Of a stretch of DNA of 64,000 bases, positions 12,242 to 39,151 are shown piece after piece. Under the pieces are notes generated by a model that saw nothing but the letters and a program-made list of their open reading frames with translations, searched no databases and was not told the origin of the DNA. How positions within the stretch are numbered: position 1 is the stretch's first letter; each line of letters starts with the position of its first letter. The stretch comes from Pontimonas salivibrio (lineage in GTDB: Bacteria > Actinomycetota > Actinomycetes > Actinomycetales > Microbacteriaceae). The translations under genes and the position numbers were made by a program. Location: NCBI RefSeq assembly GCF_002950575.1, contig NZ_CP026923.1:806001-870000 (forward strand). Reading direction: 5' to 3'.

Positions 12242-12315
12242 GGGGCGGTAGCTCAGCTGGTTAGAGCAGCGGACTCATAATCCGTCGGTCACGGGTTCAA
12301 GTCCCGTCCGCCCTA
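12242..12315 (+). tRNA. tRNA-Met (anticodon CAT)
   Basis: Complete cloverleaf, 74 nt to the discriminator A; CCA is not encoded (next bases CGG). The D arm is GCTC/GAGC. The anticodon stem GCGGA/TCCGT encloses the loop CTCATAA, giving anticodon CAT. The T arm is ACGGG/CCCGT around TTCAAGT. The acceptor stem ends in an unusual G1-U72 pair. The anticodon stem lacks the three G-C pairs of an initiator, so this is an elongator tRNA-Met, or possibly a lysidine-type tRNA-Ile2. Its last 44 nt recur as displaced fragments at 19507 and 21677. Confidence 0.9.
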
Positions 12316-12377
12316 CGGCCCTTGTCTCCCGAGCTGGGTGGTGTTGCGAGGCCTCGGGGTACTAGCCTTCGGGCACG

Positions 12378-13583
12378 ATGCAGATGTCGCAGCTCCGAAT
12401 CGAGGACGACCCACTGACGGTGATTCAGCGGGATTTCGTAGGGATGTATTCGGGAAATCTGGCTCTGAGCTCCATCCCTGGGGGGCAGGCAGCAGCCGAC
12501 GCCGCCTTGGCTACTCTTGATATCGCAGGTTACGCCGCGAAGCGCTCTGAGGTGCTCCCTCGTGAGGCCCGTGGAGCGAGCGTCCTGTCTCCCTACATTC
12601 GCCACAACCTGCTCACTCTGGGGGCGGTGTGGCAACGGGTACGCCAGGCACCTGCTCGGGACCGCGAGAAATATCAGGATGAACTGCTGTGGCAAGAATA
12701 TGCCCGGCATCTCTACGCCCGAATTGGGGTGCGGCTTTTTCAGAACCTCCGCTTCGATGCCCCGTGGGACCTTCCGGGTGATGGGTGGGAGACTGGAATG
12801 GCCTGTCTTGACGAGGTGGCCTCCGAGCTCGAGCAGGATGGCTGGCTTGTCAATCAGACCCGAATGTGGCTCGCCTCACACTGGAGCGTGCGGCAGGGAC
12901 GCGGTTGGCTGCACGGCCAGGAGCGCATGCACCGTGAGCTCATCGATGGCTCCCGCGCCGCCAATTTGCTGGGTTGGCAGTGGACGGTCGGGGCGGGTAC
13001 AGGCAAACCGTACGGCTTCGCCCGGTGGCAGGTCGAAAAACGCGCCCCCGGGCTGTGTCAGCGTTGTCCGTTGAGCAACCGCTGTCCGATCCAGGATTTC
13101 CCCGACACCGATACTCCGCGGGCTCTCGCGCCAGAGCCGCTGCTACAAAGCGACCCCGATGTAGAGAGCACCGCTGGGCCAAAAACTCCGGTCCACTTCG
13201 GCACGCCCGAGAAAGTGTTGCTCACTATTGACTCCCTCGGCGACGACGACCCCGCTCTATCGGCGCACCCTGATCTTCCCGCTGTGTTTGTCTTCAATGC
13301 CCCAGCGCTTGCCAAGCTCCAGTTGAGTGCCAAGCGAATCGGTTTTTATCTCCAGACCCTCCACGACCTAGCTGCTAGGCGCGAAGTGGAGGTCCTGCTG
13401 GGTGACCCCTACGAGTACGCCGCCGAGAACAAGGTGGCTGTCACCTTCGCCCCGGTTCCGTCGTTTCGTAAGTTCAGAAACCTGGTCGAGATCCACCCCT
13501 ATCCGTGGCTGCGGTCACCGCACAGTGGACCGGTCCAGAGCTTTTCTGCCTGGCGAAAAAGGCTGCCCTCCCCGTCGGCATGA
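12378..13583 (+). CDS. Photolyase/cryptochrome-like flavoprotein with permuted domain order (copy 1)
   Basis: 401 residues. Residues about 35-225 match the photolyase/cryptochrome FAD-binding helical domain: LSPYIRHNLL (as in TSRLSP), ELLWQEYARHL (as in ELIWREF), GWLVNQTRMWLASHW (as in GWMHNRLRM), ELIDGSRAANLLGWQW and a following GTGKPYG. Four Cys (143, 227, 230, 236) are spaced like the Fe-S ligands of FeS-type bacterial photolyases. The alpha/beta domain that normally comes first appears instead at about 278-345: LTIDSLGDDDPAL, LPAVFVFNAPAL, SAKRIGFYLQTL and LLGDP. The protein therefore looks circularly permuted. Role (DNA repair or light sensing) is unknown. It starts 63 nt after the tRNA-Met; TAGCCT at 12363-12368 may be a -10 box 9 nt before the ATG. 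Confidence 0.8.
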   Translation: MQMSQLRIEDDPLTVIQRDFVGMYSGNLALSSIPGGQAAADAALATLDIAGYAAKRSEVLPREARGASVLSPYIRHNLLTLGAVWQRVRQAPARDREKYQDELLWQEYARHLYARIGVRLFQNLRFDAPWDLPGDGWETGMACLDEVASELEQDGWLVNQTRMWLASHWSVRQGRGWLHGQERMHRELIDGSRAANLLGWQWTVGAGTGKPYGFARWQVEKRAPGLCQRCPLSNRCPIQDFPDTDTPRALAPEPLLQSDPDVESTAGPKTPVHFGTPEKVLLTIDSLGDDDPALSAHPDLPAVFVFNAPALAKLQLSAKRIGFYLQTLHDLAARREVEVLLGDPYEYAAENKVAVTFAPVPSFRKFRNLVEIHPYPWLRSPHSGPVQSFSAWRKRLPSPSA

Positions 13584-19293: not shown

Positions 19294-19370
19294 GGGGCGG
19301 TAGCTCAGCTGGTTAGAGCCCCGAACTCATAATTCGGTCGTCGCGGGTTCAAGTCCCGACCGCCCTACCA
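19294..19370 (+). tRNA. tRNA-Met (anticodon CAT), chimeric 3' half with encoded CCA
   Basis: 77 nt including CCA. The 5' half (acceptor, D arm to GAGC) is identical to the tRNA at 12242. From the anticodon stem on it differs: stem CCGAA/TTCGG around loop CTCATAA, T stem GCGGG/CCCGA with a G-A mismatch at the outer pair, and an encoded CCA that the other copy lacks. A displaced 3' half matching the other tRNA lies about 137 nt downstream. This is the pattern left when an integrative element inserts in the anticodon region and supplies a replacement 3' half. Confidence 0.85.
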
Positions 19371-19379
19371 AGGGGCATC

Positions 19380-19550
19380 GAATGCACATTAAATGCACTT
19401 CACCATCCATCACCTTCCAACACCATCCACGCTAACCCTCACCTGTTTACTGGCATCCGCACCGTCAGCTAACACCCTCTAACACCAGCTAATACCTAGG
19501 CATCGAACTCATAATCCGTCGGTCACGGTTTCAAGTCCCGTCCGCCCTAC
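19380..19550 (+). repeat. 171-bp direct repeat, copy 1, ending in a tRNA-Met 3'-half (attachment remnant)
   Basis: Nearly identical in its last 130 nt to 21550-21720 and of the same length. It contains short iterated motifs (CACCATCCA, GCTAACACC) that could be integrase arm sites. It ends with a 44-nt tRNA-Met 3' half (19507-19550) that differs by one base from the tRNA at 12242. Confidence 0.8.
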
Positions 19551-19654
19551 CGAGCCTCACCGGCCGCTCTAGCGTTAACGTGGGGTTAATGTGCCTGTGT
19601 ACTCTGGAGGGTGGAGCTGACGCCGAAGAGGGCATTGCTCGCTGAGGAGGGCGA

Positions 19655-20503
19655 ATGTCGCTGGCACAAGCGGAAGAGCTTCCCCAAGCCTTTGAGCCCA
19701 AGATTTACGTTCCCCCACGGTTGAGGGGAATCGTCGATTTCATTGGCGAAATGGAGCAGGACCGGCGCGGCCGAGCGCTGATTATGCCCGAGGGTAAAGT
19801 CGAAATCGCCTTTTTTCTCGAGGGCAGTGATGTTGCGGAATTTTATATGGGCGAGGACTCGCCCGCTGATCGTGGCGTCCGCAAAGAAACCTCCCTCATC
19901 TTTTCCGTCGCTAACCGACCACAAATCGTCGCGGGGCAAATTCACGTTTTGCTCGCTCTGATGAGCCCGGCTGCGGCCATGTTGTTGTTCGGAATTCCGG
20001 CTTCTGCACTCGCGAATCGGTCCGTTGAGCCCCGGGAGGTGGGGGTAGACGTTCGACCCCTCGAAGACGTCTTGAGGAGGCTTCCAAACTTTGAGATGCG
20101 ATCGCGAGCTCTCGAGGCCTGGATGGTGAAGAGACTGGGAGCCGTCGCGGACTTGCCGGACTTCATCTCCTTCCGCGGTGCGCTGGTTGATTTGTTCCGA
20201 GATGGCCGGGATGTTCCGAAGGTTGACCAGGTGATGGATCTCACCGGCTACTCGCGGGCGCACGCGAATCGACTCTCGCGCCAATGGATGGGGTTGTCGC
20301 TGGAGAAGACTCTCGCTCTCAAGCGGTATCGGAAGGCGCTGAGGCTCGTCAATTCGCCGATGCCACTGGCTGATGTAGCTGCCGCGGCGGGTTATTTTGA
20401 CCAGGCTCATTTCACCCACAGGTTTACCGAGTACTCCGGAATCTCGCCCAGCAACTATCGACAGACCCTACGGACCGGGGCGGACCACCTTCATCTCGCC
20501 TAG
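19655..20503 (+). CDS. AraC-family transcriptional regulator
   Basis: 282 residues. The C-terminal double HTH (about residues 185-275) shows the AraC pattern: VDQVMDLTGYSRAHANRLSR, then ADVAAAAGYFDQAHFTHRFTEYSGISPSNYR. The N-terminal domain resembles the DUF6597-type sensor seen in small AraC regulators (PPRLRGIVDFI, PEGKVEIAFFL); ligand unknown. The ATG has GAGGAGGG 5-7 nt upstream. It lies between the two 171-bp repeats with two small membrane-protein genes downstream on the same strand, so it is probably cargo of the same element and may regulate them. Confidence 0.88.
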   Translation: MSLAQAEELPQAFEPKIYVPPRLRGIVDFIGEMEQDRRGRALIMPEGKVEIAFFLEGSDVAEFYMGEDSPADRGVRKETSLIFSVANRPQIVAGQIHVLLALMSPAAAMLLFGIPASALANRSVEPREVGVDVRPLEDVLRRLPNFEMRSRALEAWMVKRLGAVADLPDFISFRGALVDLFRDGRDVPKVDQVMDLTGYSRAHANRLSRQWMGLSLEKTLALKRYRKALRLVNSPMPLADVAAAAGYFDQAHFTHRFTEYSGISPSNYRQTLRTGADHLHLA

Positions 20504-20614
20504 TGGCCCTCGGGGGCTCGCGAAACATGCTCATCTCGTACAAGACTGCCCTTCCCTAATTTTGAATAATCGTGACAAGCGCAGCTCGCGCCCACGTCAA
20601 GGAAAGGTTGTTCA

Positions 20615-21019
20615 GTGAGAAAGTTTTTTAGCCCAGTGGGTTGGCTACTGTTCAGTACATTGTTCTGGGGAATGGGCGTCACGATGACGCTGTTCTTCAC
20701 AGAAGAAGCGAACGCGGCCGGAGGCTTCTCGACCGCTGAGGCAGATGTTGCCGCCACAACGTTCTACTCCCTTGTTTTCATGGGTGGTTATCTCCTTGCG
20801 GCTGCAGGGATTGGCTACTTCGCGCGGGGGGCGACCCGCGCTCGCCTCACCTTTGGCATGGGCGTGAGCATCCTTTTCTGGGTGCTTCTCGGATTGCTCG
20901 TTCTCGTCGGGCCTGTTGTTGGTTACAGCAATTTTGCGCCGGACTTTGGAATTATCCCGATGGTGGCAGCCCTCGGCATGATGATTTCAGGCCTGCTCCA
21001 CTGGAACGACGAGGAGTAG
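20615..21019 (+). CDS. Small integral membrane protein, unknown function
   Basis: 134 residues from a GTG with AAGGAAAGG about 9-10 nt upstream. Four hydrophobic segments (about residues 8-28, 49-69, 78-100 and 110-127) and a short acidic tail. I do not recognise a family. The next gene starts 3 nt after its stop and encodes another small membrane protein. They are probably co-transcribed and may form a complex. Confidence 0.7.
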   Translation: MRKFFSPVGWLLFSTLFWGMGVTMTLFFTEEANAAGGFSTAEADVAATTFYSLVFMGGYLLAAAGIGYFARGATRARLTFGMGVSILFWVLLGLLVLVGPVVGYSNFAPDFGIIPMVAALGMMISGLLHWNDEE

Positions 21020-21022
21020 GCG

Positions 21023-21373
21023 ATGAAACTCACCAGTGAACAACTTGTTCCGTGGTTCAACCATCGGGTCTATCCCATGGTGGCGTGGGTTCTCGTCCAC
21101 TTTGTGTTGGGAGCCCTCTTTGTCATGGCATTTGGGATTGCCGGCCATGGGTCGGGAATACCTCTGTTCATTATTTCCGTCGCTGAGACTCTCGGTGTGC
21201 TGTTGTTTGTTATGTCGACGATTGATGACATGAAACGGCTCAGCGAGGATATGGCTGAGGACTTTAGGTCAACCCGATTCGGTTCGTCCTTTGCCGGTTT
21301 TGGAGTCTTCGCCTTCATCTTCTCCGTCCTCATCATTGCCGTGCCGGTAGCGCACGGTCTGCTGTTTTTATAG
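21023..21373 (+). CDS. Small integral membrane protein, unknown function
   Basis: 116 residues with three hydrophobic segments (about 18-40, 46-64 and 90-114). Its ribosome-binding site GAGGAG overlaps the stop region of the preceding gene, so translation is coupled. No family recognised. A hairpin without U-tract follows its stop at 21387. Confidence 0.7.
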   Translation: MKLTSEQLVPWFNHRVYPMVAWVLVHFVLGALFVMAFGIAGHGSGIPLFIISVAETLGVLLFVMSTIDDMKRLSEDMAEDFRSTRFGSSFAGFGVFAFIFSVLIIAVPVAHGLLFL

Positions 21374-21386
21374 CGAGAGGTTGAGT

Positions 21387-21419
21387 CGCCCGGGTTCTTA
21401 CGTCCTTGGAGCCCGGGCG
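21387..21419 (+). terminator. Possible terminator hairpin
   Basis: CGCCCGGG (21387-21394) pairs perfectly with CCCGGGCG (21412-21419) across a 17-nt loop. It lies 14 nt after the stop of the second small membrane-protein gene. No U-tract. Confidence 0.45.
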
Positions 21420-21549
21420 CAACTCTGCAGCTCTACGAGAGCTCAGTGCGCACGGATCGTAGAGAATCAAGAACCAATCAGAGAAAAAGGAATCCCGAGA
21501 CTCATGAAATCCGTAAGAACCGCATACGCGTTACCTGTCGCGGAGTGAT

Positions 21550-21720
21550 GAATGCACATTCAGTGCACATCTTGTCCTCACACACCCCAACACCATCCAC
21601 GCTAAACCTCACCCGTTTACTGGCATCCGCACCGTCAGCTAACACCCTCTGACACCAGCTAATACCTAGGCATCGAACTCATAATCCGTCGGTCACGGGT
21701 TCAAGTCCCGTCCGCCCTAC
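21550..21720 (+). repeat. 171-bp direct repeat, copy 2, ending in a tRNA-Met 3'-half (attachment remnant)
   Basis: Second copy of the repeat at 19380-19550. Its last 44 nt (21677-21720) are identical to the 3' end of the tRNA-Met at 12242, starting in the anticodon loop. The two copies bracket the AraC/membrane-protein segment as left and right attachment-type ends. No integrase gene is found between them. Confidence 0.8.
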
Positions 21721-21933
21721 TGGGCCAAAATTTTTGCAGTGGCGATTATGAGTTGGTTATGAGTGTGTGGCTAGTTGGGGACTGTTTGTCCACAGAGCTG
21801 CCATAGAGCACAGTTTCACGGATCCTCGTCCTGGTCTCACGAGTGCTTGTTTGCTTCGCCACACTGTGAGCATGACTGAACTGCAGCTTCAGGGAATTGG
21901 GTGTTTCTGCTCGGGGAATGGTGGTTGCCCGTA

Positions 21934-21962
21934 TGTCACAAAAATAGTAGTATTTTGTGACA
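21934..21962. promoter_or_regulatory. Operator/promoter of the AbiE toxin-antitoxin operon
   Basis: 10-bp perfect inverted repeat TGTCACAAAA / TTTTGTGACA around a 9-nt centre. A -10 box TAGTAT (21948-21953) lies inside it, a -35-like TTGCCC (21925-21930) lies 17 nt further upstream, and the last base of the repeat is the A of the antitoxin ATG. The position is ideal for autorepression by AbiEi. Confidence 0.7.
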
Positions 21963-22555
21963 TGACGGCACTGACGGCATCGCAGGCGATTCGCGAAACA
22001 CCCCTCGGCTCTTTTGTTCCGCTGAGTGCCCTTCCGGGGCCTTCCGACGCGGCCCGGCAGGCGGCGTCGCGAGCGACGCGGTCTGGCGAATTGGTGACGG
22101 TAAAGCCTGGACTTTACTATCGGGGCGGCAAGACCAGATACGGCACGACCAGACCTCCGGTTGAAGACATTGTCCGTGAGGTGTGGGGTTCCACTGGAGT
22201 CGGACCCGCGGGTTTTTCTGCCGCCAGAGAGTGGGGTGTGACAACGCAGGTCCCGGCGACCTACCATGTCGCAGCGTTGTGGACGGTGGCGCCCATCGAC
22301 GGAGTGACCCAGTATTCGAGGCGTAATAGGGCTCGAGGGGAATTGAATCAGAAAGAGATTGCCCTGGTGGAGTTGTTGCGTGACCCTCGAGTGTTTGTTG
22401 AAAGTGGCTGGCAATCTCTGGTTGATCGCTACACAGAAGCTCAAGCGCGGGGATTGGTTCGTGGAAGCTTTCTTGAACACGCCGTCGCGTCCGAGCGAAA
22501 CCAATCAGTTCGAGGCAATTTCGCGACACTGATGGCCGATGTGGCGCGTTCGTGA
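21962..22555 (+). CDS. abiEi: AbiEi-type antitoxin of a type IV toxin-antitoxin system
   Basis: 197 residues. The N-terminal part looks like the AbiEi winged-helix (SQAIRETPLGSFVPLSALP, then GELVTVKPGLYYRG). The rest fits the AbiEi C-terminal domain (GFSAAREWGVTTQVPATYHVAAL). In this family the antitoxin represses its own promoter by binding inverted repeats and counteracts a nucleotidyltransferase toxin. The ATG at 21962 was chosen because a promoter-operator palindrome ends on it; an open frame extends upstream to 21767 but would read through that operator. The stop overlaps the toxin start (GTGA). Confidence 0.85.
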   Translation: MTALTASQAIRETPLGSFVPLSALPGPSDAARQAASRATRSGELVTVKPGLYYRGGKTRYGTTRPPVEDIVREVWGSTGVGPAGFSAAREWGVTTQVPATYHVAALWTVAPIDGVTQYSRRNRARGELNQKEIALVELLRDPRVFVESGWQSLVDRYTEAQARGLVRGSFLEHAVASERNQSVRGNFATLMADVARS

Positions 22556-23538
22556 CCGCACGTCTTCGCGATCACCCTGACGACCTGACGGCGCTCATTC
22601 AGCAAACGGCTAATGCGCTGGGAGTTCCGGTCTCTCATGTGGAGAAGGACTTCTGGGTGACAGAAGTCCTTCGCGTAGCGAGCGCACCCCGGGAAGTGCG
22701 CCTGACTGATGGGTCAAGGGCTGCTGTCACTTTGACCTTCAAAGGCGGCACCAGCCTCAGCAGGGTGTTTGGAATAATCGACCGTTTTTCAGAAGACGTC
22801 GATCTCATCGCACATTTCCCTGATGGAGCCAGCCCGCAGGCGCGTCATACGTTGCTCAAAGCCGTGGATAGGGCCGTGCAGGAGCATCTTGGTGTGGCGA
22901 CAGAGCACGTAGAGGTCCAGTCTTCGACGGTCGGTGTGAAGCGGTTCACCGCCTACCCCTATCGAATGCACCAGAGCGATCGTAACCTTAAGGATCGAGT
23001 AGTGCTCGAACTGGGCAGTAGGGGAGGGGGTGCTCCTTCTGCCCGCCACCCATACCGCTCTCTTGTCGCGGACTTTGCCCTTGCAGTCCTCGGCGGCACT
23101 ACCTCGGACTGGGAAGAGTTTGCGCCCTTCGACGTCACCGTTCTGGCCCCGGAGCGCACTCTTCTAGAGAAACTCGCTGCTGTCCATGACGCGGCCTCAC
23201 GGCTCGACACCGAGAGACTTTTGCGCGGTGGACGTCATTTCTATGACATCTATCGCCTGCTGCGCGACTCTCGAATTGCTGAGGCTCTTGGCGTCTTGGG
23301 AGAAGAGGGAATCGCTGCCCTTGCCGAGGACATCGATAATCACAGTCTGGCGGGGGAATTTAGTGTCACGCCCCGCCCACCAGGCGGCTATGCCGATAGT
23401 CCGGCCTTCGATGAAGCCCACGAATGTTTCCCCTCAATCAAAGCCGGCTTCGAGGCATCACGTGCCCTCGTCTATGGCGAGGCTGTGACGATGAAGGAGG
23501 TCATTGAGACCGTCAGGCTGAACCGTGTGGTGATGTGA
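22552..23538 (+). CDS. abiEii: AbiEii/AbiGii-family nucleotidyltransferase toxin
   Basis: 328 residues. The N-terminus carries VEKDFWVTEVLR. The nucleotidyltransferase signature follows: FKGGTSLSRVF, then FSEDVDLIA with the metal-binding acidic residues, and later LLEKLAAVHDA and RHFYDIYRLL. These are diagnostic of the AbiEii/MenT-like group, whose members inhibit growth by nucleotide transfer and can abort phage infection. The GTG start overlaps the antitoxin stop by 4 nt. The pair sits just beyond a tRNA-Met attachment remnant and before an IS element, typical of a defence cargo. Confidence 0.9.
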   Translation: MTARLRDHPDDLTALIQQTANALGVPVSHVEKDFWVTEVLRVASAPREVRLTDGSRAAVTLTFKGGTSLSRVFGIIDRFSEDVDLIAHFPDGASPQARHTLLKAVDRAVQEHLGVATEHVEVQSSTVGVKRFTAYPYRMHQSDRNLKDRVVLELGSRGGGAPSARHPYRSLVADFALAVLGGTTSDWEEFAPFDVTVLAPERTLLEKLAAVHDAASRLDTERLLRGGRHFYDIYRLLRDSRIAEALGVLGEEGIAALAEDIDNHSLAGEFSVTPRPPGGYADSPAFDEAHECFPSIKAGFEASRALVYGEAVTMKEVIETVRLNRVVM

Positions 23539-23748: not shown

Positions 23749-24688
23749 TTATAGAGACCCCAGAGTTGTGTTTTCTGCCAGCGCTTGCGCCTGACGGTTT
23801 TCAGCATAGAAGGCTTGCTCGAACTCTGCTGGTGGGACGTCGCCGATGAACCCGTGGAGGCGCTCCTGGTTATGCCAGTGGACCCACCCGAGGGTTGCAA
23901 GTTCTAGCTCTTCAACGCTTTTCCAGGGTCCGGGGTGTTCTGGTCCCCGAACGAGTTCCGCCTCGTAATACCCGTTCACGGTTTCCGCCAGGGCGTTATC
24001 AAAGGAATCACCAACGGTGCCAATCGATGGAACAGCGCCGATCTCGGCGAGGCGCTCCCCATAGCGAATAGACGTGAATTGACTGCCGGCGTCCGAGTGG
24101 CACCGCAAACCAGGGAGCTTTTTGCCCCTGGACCACCTCGCCATTTCAATGGCATCCAGGACGGTTTCTGTTTTCATCGTGGAGGCGACCCGCCACCCGA
24201 CGATCGTTCTGGAGTAGGCGTCAATGATGAAACACACGTATGCCACCCCCGCCCAGGTTACCGAACTTCAGGTCAGTCACCCACAGCTGGTTCGGCGCAG
24301 TTGACGAGAACACCCGTTTCACCAGGTCTGGATGTCTTACCGCCGTCGGGTCTGGTTTCGTTGTCTTTACGCGCTTAGAGCGCTTGACGCCTTCAATGCC
24401 AAGAGATCGCATGAGCCGGGCTATCTGATCCCGCCCAACATCGATCCCTGAGCGTCTCGCTGCCTTCCACAGTTTCCTAGCCCCATAGACCTTCCGGTTG
24501 TTCACCCAGAGGTCAAACAACTCAGCACCAATCACAGCGTCACTCAGTGTTCTCGCTGAAGGGGAACGGTCCCTTGCCGCATAGTAAGTACTTGGCGCCA
24601 CCTGCAAGACCTTGCAGATGAGCCAGGCACCAAGCTTGCGTCCTTCGACAATGTCGTCCTTGTTGCGGTTGACGAAATCAACTACAAC
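23749..24688 (-). pseudogene. IS3-family transposase orfB, frameshifted
   Basis: rve/DDE integrase of the IS3 orfB type. The upstream part (24688 to about 24262) reads DFVNRNKDDIVEGRKLGAWL, then KVYGARKLWKAARR, then NQLWVTDLKF. The downstream part restarts AYVCFIIDAYSRTIVGWRV and includes HSDAGSQF and ETVNGYYEAELV. Removing one of the two C bases at 24261-24262 (plus strand) restores FVTWAGVAYVCF, so a single inserted base caused the break. The three catalytic acidic positions are still visible across the two frames. Expression of full-length OrfAB would also need the usual -1 slip from orfA. Confidence 0.85.
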
Positions 24689-24969
24689 CGTTGTTGGCGG
24701 CCTGGCTCCACCGACGCGCGTTTCAGGATTTCGTTTTCCATCTCCAACACACGCGTCTTCCGACGCAGTTCAATGAGTTCCCGTTTCTCAGAACTGGTGA
24801 GTCCCTCAACACGTCCCGAGTCGACAGCGTCGATCGCCATCCAGCGACGCAGAGTCCCCTCGCTGATCCCTAAACCCTTCGCAACCTGGGCGCCAGGTTC
24901 CCCCACAGCGACCAGGTCAAGGGCTCGACGCCGGAACTCCGGCGGTTTCGCAGCTGGAATCACAGACAT
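24682..24969 (-). CDS. IS3-family transposase orfA (HTH protein)
   Basis: 95 residues, with a helix-turn-helix of the transposase_8 type (FRRRALDLVAVGEPGAQVAKGLGISEGTLRRW) followed by a leucine-rich coiled coil (LIELRRKTRVLEMENEILKRA). It binds IS ends. It overlaps the start of orfB in another frame, as usual for IS3. It is intact, although its partner is broken. Confidence 0.85.
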   Translation of the reverse strand: MSVIPAAKPPEFRRRALDLVAVGEPGAQVAKGLGISEGTLRRWMAIDAVDSGRVEGLTSSEKRELIELRRKTRVLEMENEILKRASVEPGRQQRL

Positions 24970-35770: not shown

Positions 35771-37156
35771 TTAGCGCTGTTGTGAGCGCCGGGTGTCGGT
35801 GTTCGGCCGGCCACCCCCAGTGCGAGTAGTTCGACTCGTCTGAGTACTGCGGCCGCGAGCTGTTTGGCTCGTCCCACCACGACGAGCTCTGTTGCGTTGC
35901 GCGTTAGCGCCAGTGGAGGTGCCCTTACCTCGGTGTGCTCCACCGTGATGTTGGTGTTCTGCGGGCATGGGCTTCACATACGGTGCAACCTCACCCACAA
36001 GGGCGAGCACTTCTGGTGACCGTGACGTGACACTGATGGGGGCCACAGTAATGCCGGCTTTTCTCAGCAAAGTGCTCAGGTCACTTTTCTGGGTGGGCAG
36101 ACACAGTGTGATGACATCACCCTCGGCCCCGGCACGAGCCGTCCGCCCGGAGCGGTGCAAATACGCTTTGTGTTCCATCGGAGGGTCGACGTGAATGACC
36201 AAATCCACGTTGTCCACGTGAACACCTCTGGCGGCAACATCTGTGGCCACGAGAACTTTGGCGGATCCGTCACTGAAGGCCGCGAGGTTTCGATCTCTGG
36301 CGGGTTGGGACAGGTTGCCATGGAGGTCAACGGCGGGGATTCCCGCTTGGGTGAGTGCTTTAGCGAGCTTTTTGGCATGGTGTTTAGTCCGCATGAACAG
36401 GATCCTTCGCCCTGTGCCGGAGGCGAGAGCATAAAGCAGTTCCTTTTTTGATTCTGCGCTGGGGGTGTCGAACACGTGGTGGGTCATGTGGGTAACGGGG
36501 GAGTTCGCCTCATCCACCGCGTGCATCACTTCGTTGTGCAAAAAACGATCAACGAGCTTGTTGACCCCGTTATCGAGGGTTGCTGAGAACAGCAATCGCT
36601 GGCCTGTATTGGGTGTGGCGTTTAAGATCCTGGTCACTACGGGCAGGAAGCCAAGGTCAGCCATGTGGTCGGCCTCATCCAACACCGTCATCTCAACGGC
36701 GTCTAAGTGCAGCAGGCCTTGACCCATCAAATCCTCTAAGCGTCCTGGTGTGGCCACCACAATGTCGACGCCTTCGCGAAGGGCCTGAACTTGGCGGGTT
36801 TGGGACACTCCACCAAAGATCGTGGTCACTCGAAGGTTGACTGCTTCCGCAAGCGGCCGCATCGCATTGGTGATTTGGGTGGCCAGTTCCCGGGTGGGAG
36901 CCAACACGAGACCCAGTGGGCGACTGGCCCTTCGGCTCCCTCCGGAGAGTTCCCCGGAGAGTCTTGCGACAAGGGGAATGGAAAAGGCCAGGGTCTTACC
37001 AGAGCCTGTTTTGCCCCGACCCAAGACATCTTTGCCGGCCAAGGTGTCGGGCAGGGTGTCGATCTGTATGGGAAAGGGGCTGTCGATACCGGCCCGGGTG
37101 AGGGCGGCGACAATTGTGGCGGGCACGCCAAGTGAGGAAAAACTGTGGGTGTTCAT
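35771..37156 (-). CDS. DEAD-box RNA helicase (RhlE-like)
   Basis: 461 residues from the ATG at 37156. Motif Q lies in FSSLGVPATIVAAL...SPFPIQ, motif I is GKTGSGKT, Ia PTRELA, II VLDEADHM, III SAT, V ATDVAARGVHV and VI HRSGRTARAG. An Arg/Gly/Thr-rich tail (about 400-461) fits RNA binding. It unwinds RNA in ribosome assembly, decay or cold adaptation. The longer frame to 37270 is rejected, because the helicase domain starts right after MNTHSF and no signal supports the extension. A leader with two hairpins precedes it. Confidence 0.9.
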   Translation of the reverse strand: MNTHSFSSLGVPATIVAALTRAGIDSPFPIQIDTLPDTLAGKDVLGRGKTGSGKTLAFSIPLVARLSGELSGGSRRASRPLGLVLAPTRELATQITNAMRPLAEAVNLRVTTIFGGVSQTRQVQALREGVDIVVATPGRLEDLMGQGLLHLDAVEMTVLDEADHMADLGFLPVVTRILNATPNTGQRLLFSATLDNGVNKLVDRFLHNEVMHAVDEANSPVTHMTHHVFDTPSAESKKELLYALASGTGRRILFMRTKHHAKKLAKALTQAGIPAVDLHGNLSQPARDRNLAAFSDGSAKVLVATDVAARGVHVDNVDLVIHVDPPMEHKAYLHRSGRTARAGAEGDVITLCLPTQKSDLSTLLRKAGITVAPISVTSRSPEVLALVGEVAPYVKPMPAEHQHHGGAHRGKGTSTGANAQRNRARRGGTSQTARGRSTQTSRTTRTGGGRPNTDTRRSQQR

Positions 37157-37442
37157 AATCAGTAAGGGCTTTCTGGTGATGATGTTCATCACGTAGTGCC
37201 AGACGAAGCCTGGCAGGGGGCGAGTGCATCGAGTGATGCATCCGATCGCCGCAAGAAAATTGTCAACCACACTGTGGTGAGGGAGCGTTCTACGACGCAG
37301 GGAACAACGAGCTGTTCACCGGTGTTCTCACCATAGCGCAGATCGTGACGCGTTGGGCTATCGGCGTCTGTGTGGTCATCAGGCTGAACTATCCGGCCGA
37401 TAATCGGTGACCTGTTCTGTGGAAGTAAGGGTTGCTCTGTGG
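37157..37442 (-). promoter_or_regulatory. Leader region of the helicase gene with two hairpins
   Basis: About 286 bases without a gene. GCCAG/CTGGC (37198-37214, 7-nt loop) and TGCATC/GATGCA (37225-37240, 4-nt loop) form two tandem stem-loops within 85 nt of the helicase ATG. Structured leaders are common for cold-induced helicases; this role is inferred. Confidence 0.4.
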
Positions 37443-37862: not shown

Positions 37863-37954
37863 GGTGAAAGCTTAGGTGTCCCAGCTTGTCGGCCGAAGGC
37901 GGGGAGGGATTTGCCTGGGAGCAGTCATCACTTCGGCTGGGTAGCCTCCTTTTT

Positions 37955-39151
37955 ATGGAGTTTCGCGACATCCCGGTAGTCGATGACCCGGAGAAGGTCA
38001 TCGAACGCCATTTCGACGGGCTCTACTCTGGGCCTGTGGCGTTGAGCCCCATCCCGGGTGGGCAAACGGCCGCCGATCAGGCCTTGGCCACCCTAGACAT
38101 CGCGGGTTATGCCGCGACTCGCTCTGAAGTGCTACCGAAAGAGCGCCGCGGGGCGAGTGTCCTCTCGCCCTACATTCGACACAACCTGTTACCCCTCGGG
38201 GAGGTCTATCAGGCTGTGAAGGACGCGCCGGCTCGTGATCGGGAAAAGTTTCGAGACGAATTGTTGTGGCAGGAATACGCCAGGCATCTTTATGCCCGGG
38301 TGGGTACGAGGCTGTTTTCGAACCTGCGTTTTGAGGCCACCTGGGATACGCCGGGAGATGGCTGGAATCGTGACATGGCCTGTGTGGATGAGGTTGCCTC
38401 CGAGCTGGAAACCGACGGTTGGTTGGTCAACCAGACCCGCATGTGGTTGGCCTCGCATTGGACGGTTCGCAACGGCGCAGGGTGGCTTCACGGTCAAGAG
38501 CGGATGCACCGAGAGCTCATCGATGGTTCGAGGGCTGCCAACCTTTTAGGTTGGCAGTGGACCGTGGGATCAGGAACCGGTAAGCCTTACGGTTTCGCCC
38601 GCTGGCAGGTCGAAAAGCGGGCACCGGGTTTATGTGAGCGCTGCCCCCTCTCAAGCCAATGCCCAATCGAAGAGTTCCCCGACTCCACACCACTGCGGGA
38701 ATTGGCGGATGAGCCACTATTGAGGCACGACTCGGATCCAGAGGCGACCGCAGGTCCCGACCGACCAATCAGGCTTCGCTCGCCGGAATATGTGTTGTTG
38801 ACCATTGATTCTTTGGGTGATGACGACCCGGCCCTGCAGGCCCACCCCGAGCTTCCCGTCGTTTTCGTGTTCAATGAGCCCGCTCTCACCCGTCTTCAGC
38901 TCAGCGCAAAGCGCATCGGTTTTTACCTGCAAACCTTGGCGGATTTGTCGACCAGGCGCGACGTTCGAGTGCTGTTGGGTGATCCTTATGTGTTCACCGA
39001 ACAATATTCAGTGGCCGTGACGTACGCCCCGGTACCGTCGTTTAAGAAATTCACCCGATTGGCGGAGGTTCACCCCTACCCGTGGTTGAGACGACCACAC
39101 GGTGGGTCAGTGAGAAGCTTCTCGGCCTGGCGTCGGGGGCTCGGCAAATGA
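37955..39151 (+). CDS. Photolyase/cryptochrome-like flavoprotein with permuted domain order (copy 2)
   Basis: 398 residues, co-linear with copy 1 and without indels up to the C-terminal few residues. It shares the FAD-domain motifs (LSPYIRHNLL, ELLWQEYARHL, GWLVNQTRMWLASHW, DGSRAANLLGWQW) and the four Cys at 143, 227, 230 and 236. The alpha/beta domain again follows rather than precedes (DSLGDDDPAL, LPVVFVFNEPAL, SAKRIGFYLQTL, LLGDP). The ATG at 37955 was chosen because it aligns with copy 1 and has TAGCCT 7 nt upstream, giving a leaderless transcript; an in-frame start at 37886 would add 23 unmatched residues. TetR and desaturase genes lie downstream. DNA repair or blue-light sensing is inferred. 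Confidence 0.8.
   Translation: MEFRDIPVVDDPEKVIERHFDGLYSGPVALSPIPGGQTAADQALATLDIAGYAATRSEVLPKERRGASVLSPYIRHNLLPLGEVYQAVKDAPARDREKFRDELLWQEYARHLYARVGTRLFSNLRFEATWDTPGDGWNRDMACVDEVASELETDGWLVNQTRMWLASHWTVRNGAGWLHGQERMHRELIDGSRAANLLGWQWTVGSGTGKPYGFARWQVEKRAPGLCERCPLSSQCPIEEFPDSTPLRELADEPLLRHDSDPEATAGPDRPIRLRSPEYVLLTIDSLGDDDPALQAHPELPVVFVFNEPALTRLQLSAKRIGFYLQTLADLSTRRDVRVLLGDPYVFTEQYSVAVTYAPVPSFKKFTRLAEVHPYPWLRRPHGGSVRSFSAWRRGLGK

Follow-up and report, generated by a model that had tools for sequence, protein, structure and literature searches.

Tandem integrase-less cassettes at tRNA-Met genes in Pontimonas, probably moved in trans

In the genome of Pontimonas salivibrio, two direct repeats that end in part of a tRNA gene bracket a small group of genes with no integrase among them, which raises the question of how such a unit could move, or whether it is only the remnant of something that once did. 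The question bears on gene gain in streamlined marine bacteria that have no prophages: in the paper describing the genome of this strain, phage-derived genes were reported to be absent, and its toxin/antitoxin-rich islands were given no mechanism (PMC6106888). We analysed a stretch of 64,000 nucleotides around the repeats (the window, to which all coordinates without a locus name refer; the tRNA genes, repeat blocks, units and genes of the AraC unit described below lie on its + strand). The source genome is complete, in one contig of 1,760,810 bp; all other genomes of the genus are incomplete, MAG-grade assemblies, whose contigs often break in the repeat.

The repeats lie at 19380-19550 and 21550-21720, each 171 nt long, as the first-pass annotation had described them, and are offset by 2170 bp. 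Their longest ungapped match covers 140 nt at 96% identity (19417-19556 and 21587-21726), and a 22-nt outer block at 19380 and 21550 lengthens it to 171 nt. Each repeat consists of a non-coding arm of ~124 bp (arm 1, P-arm-like, 19380..19503; arm 2, delimited by repeat comparison, 21550..21673) followed by the 3' half of a tRNA-Met(CAT), a putative attachment core (core 1, 19504..19550; core 2, 21674..21720). The tRNA-Met half had thus been correctly recognised, with a length of 47 nt instead of the 44 first given. A third copy of the half (51 nt) is found inside a tRNA gene, 182 nt upstream of the repeat.

The arm does contain the iterated motifs that had first been likened to integrase arm sites. 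Copy 1 has three 8-mers on the same strand at exact 10-bp spacing (CTAACACC/CTAACACC/CTAATACC), that is, three CTAACACC-like 10-bp units, and words of the GTGCACAT type form an outer pair; dinucleotide shuffles matched the three-word score in 0 of 1000 cases for copy 1 and in 4 of 1000 for copy 2. When arms are aligned, the words CTAAC(A/G)CC / CTAACACC / CTAATACC stand beside the core, in exact 10-bp steps on one strand, and mean column identity is 91% across 12 aligned repeat copies from 9 genomes. Only a subset of units shows conservation on the opposite (P') side. Attachment sites of tyrosine integrases have arm-type sites beside a core that lies in the tRNA anticodon loop. Judged by its sequence, the arm and core layout matches such a site, with a 3'-half core running from the anticodon loop and phased arm-type repeats adjacent to it. 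At 5 of 41 unit left ends, one or two inverted copies of the anticodon-loop core (TTATGAGT) occur 24-36 bp past the tRNA half (window 21745-21763; L040:3353, L043:3334, L044:3382, L116:3984); possibly they are an element of the opposite arm.

The same 170-bp block could in principle be a structured RNA or a tRNA-derived repeat with no role in recombination, as it holds a tRNA half and folds locally. Folding of the alignment, however, gave 0 compensatory changes in 26 predicted pairs, which makes a structured RNA unlikely; no Rfam family reached the gathering level other than the tRNA genes themselves, and the block marks the borders of the units exactly. We regard this explanation as very improbable.

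Both tRNA-Met(CAT) genes upstream of the repeats were identified by ARAGORN and Rfam. The first (12242..12316) is elongator-like and typical of the genus: it is 100% identical over 75 nt to the tRNA-Met of L043 and L048, and this tRNA is nearly identical throughout the genus. The second (19294..19370) is divergent, with an encoded CCA, and is the upstream anchor of the array. The adjacent gene had been taken as the source of the cores. Since the tRNA half of the repeat shares 94% identity with the 12242 gene and 84% with the 19294 gene, the closest parent of the cores, by sequence identity, is a tRNA-Met of the 12242 type and not the neighbour. The 19294 gene has an altered anticodon stem, and it had no match at E<=1e-22 among 298 other genomes of the family, in which no donor was found.

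The first reading of the locus as a single isolated element had to be given up: there are at least two tandem units here, and they belong to a genus-wide family of arrays. The order is tRNA (19294), cargo-free unit, AraC unit, and a further unit opening with an AbiEi/AbiEii pair. The cargo-free unit, of arm and core only (19371..19550), is placed before the AraC unit because the upstream core-to-core distance is merely 182 bp. The AraC unit runs from core 1 to core 2 (19551..21720) and bears the cargo originally proposed for it, namely an AraC-family regulator of 282 aa (19655..20503; Pfam HTH_18, E 2e-15, HTH_AraC, 4e-11) and two small membrane proteins of 134 aa (20615..21019) and 116 aa (21023..21373), recognised from their ORFs and hydropathy, with 2-3 hydrophobic segments and no Pfam match. 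The start of the next unit (21721..23538) contains the AbiE genes at 21962-22555 and 22552-23538 (PADLOC: AbiEi 2.5e-86, AbiEii 8e-62; Pfam AbiEii 7e-30); this unit has no right-hand repeat, and no further core was found in the window. An insertion sequence of the rve type (IS3-like, by Pfam), with transposase genes at 23749-24969, is also found in the unit after repeat 2. Besides AraC with membrane proteins, the cargo of the units comprises nucleotidyltransferase pairs (AbiE-like and DUF6036), toxins of the RHH/ParE and Fic kinds, and secreted proteins of the beta-propeller type. In some units the right-hand repeat is degenerate or missing, so part of each array has decayed.

Arm and core together are present in 12 of the 19 sampled genomes of the genus, several of which have two or more copies, and the sequence of arm 1 is conserved in 12 genus members. 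In three cases (L043, L110, L113) the units form tandem arrays behind tRNA-Met, and the repeats are linked to tRNA in other genomes too, contrary to the early concern that elsewhere they might be unrelated to it. An arm-only search of 396 genomes of the order matched the window genome alone, the arm being absent from the 395 others, and a search of the family gave arm-covering matches in the genus only, with the tRNA half alone matching elsewhere. The repeat is where many contigs break off (L046, L047, L110), and one assembly (G310) is 10% contaminated, as might be expected of an assembly or binning artefact in the relatives; however, the complete window genome itself has the structure, and the patterns recur in independent genomes and on unbroken contigs with tRNA flanks (L110, L111, L112, L113). 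We give an artefact next to no weight.

Do the units move? A comparison of sister strains had been suggested at the first pass, and it revealed both an empty site and a site with different cargo. In L112, tRNA-Met is followed by a 1.4-kb unit, arm and core, and then a photolyase-like gene; the window is the empty counterpart, with no cassette behind the 12242 tRNA and the same photolyase-like gene directly after it. L111 and L121 have a common left flank, up to the end of the tRNA, and a common right flank, with different units between them. Units are also reshuffled: the AraC unit, which is internal in the window, is located directly behind tRNA-Met in L121, with homology that starts in the core and 93.7-94.8% identity between the two units, and a unit with a ParE-type toxin-antitoxin pair opens the array in L043 but has an internal position in L040 and L044.

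As a yardstick of core DNA we took, for each pair of genomes, their xerC/xerD regions. Identities of the units and of these regions were 94% vs 68-70% (window/G310), 98% vs 65-69% (G300/G308), 95.7% vs 74% (G162/G294), 98.2% vs 69.7% (G299/G303) and 92% vs 71% (G294/G307). Thus, between species that share 65-74% identity in their core DNA, the identity of single units is 92-98%, indicating recent transfer. The suggestion that the element might be a relic is for this reason unlikely to apply to the family as a whole.

Such exchange might also occur with no current recombinase, if RecA recombined DNA at the identical stretches of tRNA (75 bp) and core (47 bp) and the arm were carried along passively. 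The near identity of the tRNA genus-wide would favour this. So would a difference inside the AraC unit, which in L121 has an extra 1.5 kb with three small ORFs (L121 7293-8812 vs window 20504-20546): in the window, the homologous stretches on either side overlap by 43 bp, which points to a deletion or insertion on a short repeat. Yet flanking genes at 65-74% identity are too divergent for ordinary exchange driven by flanks, insertion would require crossovers inside a single 47-bp core, and RecA would account neither for the phased motifs nor for a non-coding arm being so strongly conserved. We consider RecA alone an improbable cause.

The AraC unit has no integrase, as noted at the first pass, and neither does the window; the window genome has only two tyrosine recombinases, XerC and XerD, one beside ParA (XerD-like) and the other with XerC-like surroundings, and it lacks serine recombinases of PF00239. 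Among the 19 genomes of the genus we found neither a cognate integrase nor any integrase-bearing element at tRNA-Met; as the relatives are incomplete MAG-grade assemblies, a cognate enzyme may lie in the parts that these lack.

The genus does hold non-Xer integrases, none of which, on the evidence so far, is cognate to the arm. One (L109, in G302:C4) is encoded ~5 kb from an arm copy on the same contig, but we do not take it as cognate: its element has a repeat of its own that differs from the arm (ATGTGGCACAACGTGTGGCAC, two 21-bp copies 12.8 kb apart), and one end lies near a 3' fragment resembling tRNA-Pro(GGG), identified by eye. Between the ATGTGGCACAACGTGTGGCAC repeats, L109 1-12923 holds integrase, excisionase-like and HNH genes, and the arm copy also lies inside the element, as does a PDC-S11 candidate defence gene. 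A second integrase (L108, in G310:C182), which likewise has an arm copy within reach on its contig, was assigned to another element, since a partial sequence resembling tRNA-Arg, identified by eye, lies near it, and a third is ~42 kb from an array and interrupted by a stop. The surroundings of the remaining ones lack the arm; four have a Lys, Pro, Ser or Thr tRNA no more than ~150 bp away, and the others are near Arg or Leu tRNAs or have no tRNA that we could find.

These results bear on whether the units are CIMEs or relics built up by accretion, that is, decayed elements that keep their att sites and move only in cis, carried along in tandem by an intact element that integrates beside them. 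Tandem accretion is known for islands of the ICESt1 type (PMC5704250) and has been put forward for those ssrA islands of Dehalococcoides that lack an integrase (PMC3146451), and some of the cores and arms are indeed degenerate. Against this, the movement between species involved single units and not composites, none of the 19 genomes had an intact element at tRNA-Met, and the genus elements that do bear integrases sit beside Lys, Pro, Ser or Thr tRNAs. This origin seems rather unlikely to us, although less so than the alternatives considered above.

We think it likely that the locus belongs to a family of tRNA-Met cassettes, confined to this genus and devoid of integrases, that a helper integrase from outside the sampled genomes moves in trans; the packets probably use the enzyme of another mobile element to move. 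Each unit spans core to core, with the ~124-bp arm just upstream of the right-hand core. A tyrosine integrase targeting tRNA-Met would bind a circular unit at its arm and core and recombine it with a tRNA-Met core; integration would restore the tRNA on the left and leave the arm and the displaced 3' half on the right. Repeated insertion would make the array grow, and the reverse reaction would excise single units. Since no unit encodes the integrase, it must on this model act in trans, supplied by a helper that may be a phage or conjugative element. Weighing against the model, no integrase, circle or helper was seen, P'-side conservation is confined to a subset of units, and the arm was found neither in viral contigs (IMG/VR), where we searched four exact arm, core or P'-side patterns, nor in a phage collection, which gave tRNA-half matches only. 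A protein search of the viral contigs with the L109 integrase returned nothing relevant. It may be, as a more tentative extension, that a single tRNA-Met-specific integrase supplied by a phage or conjugative helper shuffles cassettes between species, the cassettes themselves bringing nothing but their cargo and the common docking site of arm and tRNA-Met core, amounting to genus-wide, integron-like gene capture on a tRNA.

The general kind of system is already known, from additive tRNA islands, tandem ssrA islands with integrase-less members, and CIMEs. Additive flexible islands (fGIs), as the cited passages describe them, are strain-variable sets of cassettes targeted to a tRNA, with a repeat of the tRNA 3' end left behind (PMC4119200, PMC7771536, PMC10872708); examples are Alteromonas fGI1, Ca. 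Actinomarinales fGI1 and Methylophilaceae fGI-2. The Pontimonas locus shares the tRNA target, the 3'-end direct repeat after each cassette, and the presence or absence of cassettes at one locus (L112 vs window; L111 vs L121). In those passages, however, fGIs are defined by the tRNA fragment alone, whereas units with unrelated cargo here have a ~124-bp arm in common; they differ also in that no integrase was found here in any sampled member. Tycheposons are likewise tRNA-anchored cargo elements of streamlined marine bacteria but, as described, include a tyrosine recombinase gene (PMC10872708), which the Pontimonas cassettes lack.

The ssrA islands of Dehalococcoides are also arranged in tandem behind one RNA gene, with a conserved motif beside the repeat, and about half of them have no integration module (PMC3146451). 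Unlike the Pontimonas cassettes, with units of ~1-3 kb and no integrase in any member, they include 16 islands with the serine recombinase DsiB (PMC3146451). CIMEs (ICESt1 relatives of Streptococcus thermophilus) are bracketed by att sites, tandem, and devoid of integration and transfer genes (PMC5704250), and in our integrase search the Pontimonas units too kept attL/attR without such genes. By definition, though, CIMEs derive from an ICE or IME and are mobilised in cis (PMC5704250), and no parent element is known for the cassettes, none being present at tRNA-Met in 19 genomes. With integrons the cassettes share small cargo units that each have a recombination site, a recombinase encoded outside them, and frequent toxin-antitoxin cargo; they differ in having no intI, attC hairpin or attI, the genome encoding XerC and XerD only and the repeat having no covarying hairpin, and in a site made of a tRNA half plus an arm. 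What is new is the one-sided non-coding arm shared across unrelated cargo, together with the lack of an integrase in all members sampled. Such a shared docking site predicts unit borders and flags recently moved cargo, antiphage and toxin-antitoxin genes included, and it can serve as bait for the helper.

An independent example of the attachment-site layout, which favours our main reading, comes from the viral contigs: one (IMGVR_UViG_3300048855_000067; L130, L132) has an int-bearing, prophage-like element between tRNA-Met and a copy of its 3' half, which starts at the same anticodon-loop position, CTCATAATCC, as the cassette core. The integrase adjoins the tRNA, and arm words of the GTGCCCG type are found on both sides.

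Finally, the window contains two paralogous photolyase-like genes (12378-13583 and 37886-39151), located near the two ends of a variable region that extends from the tRNA-Met at 12242 to a helicase gene (35771-37270). In L112, the first of them has an ortholog that matches FAD_binding_7, and in G213 and G104 the helicase lies next to copies of the arm or core.
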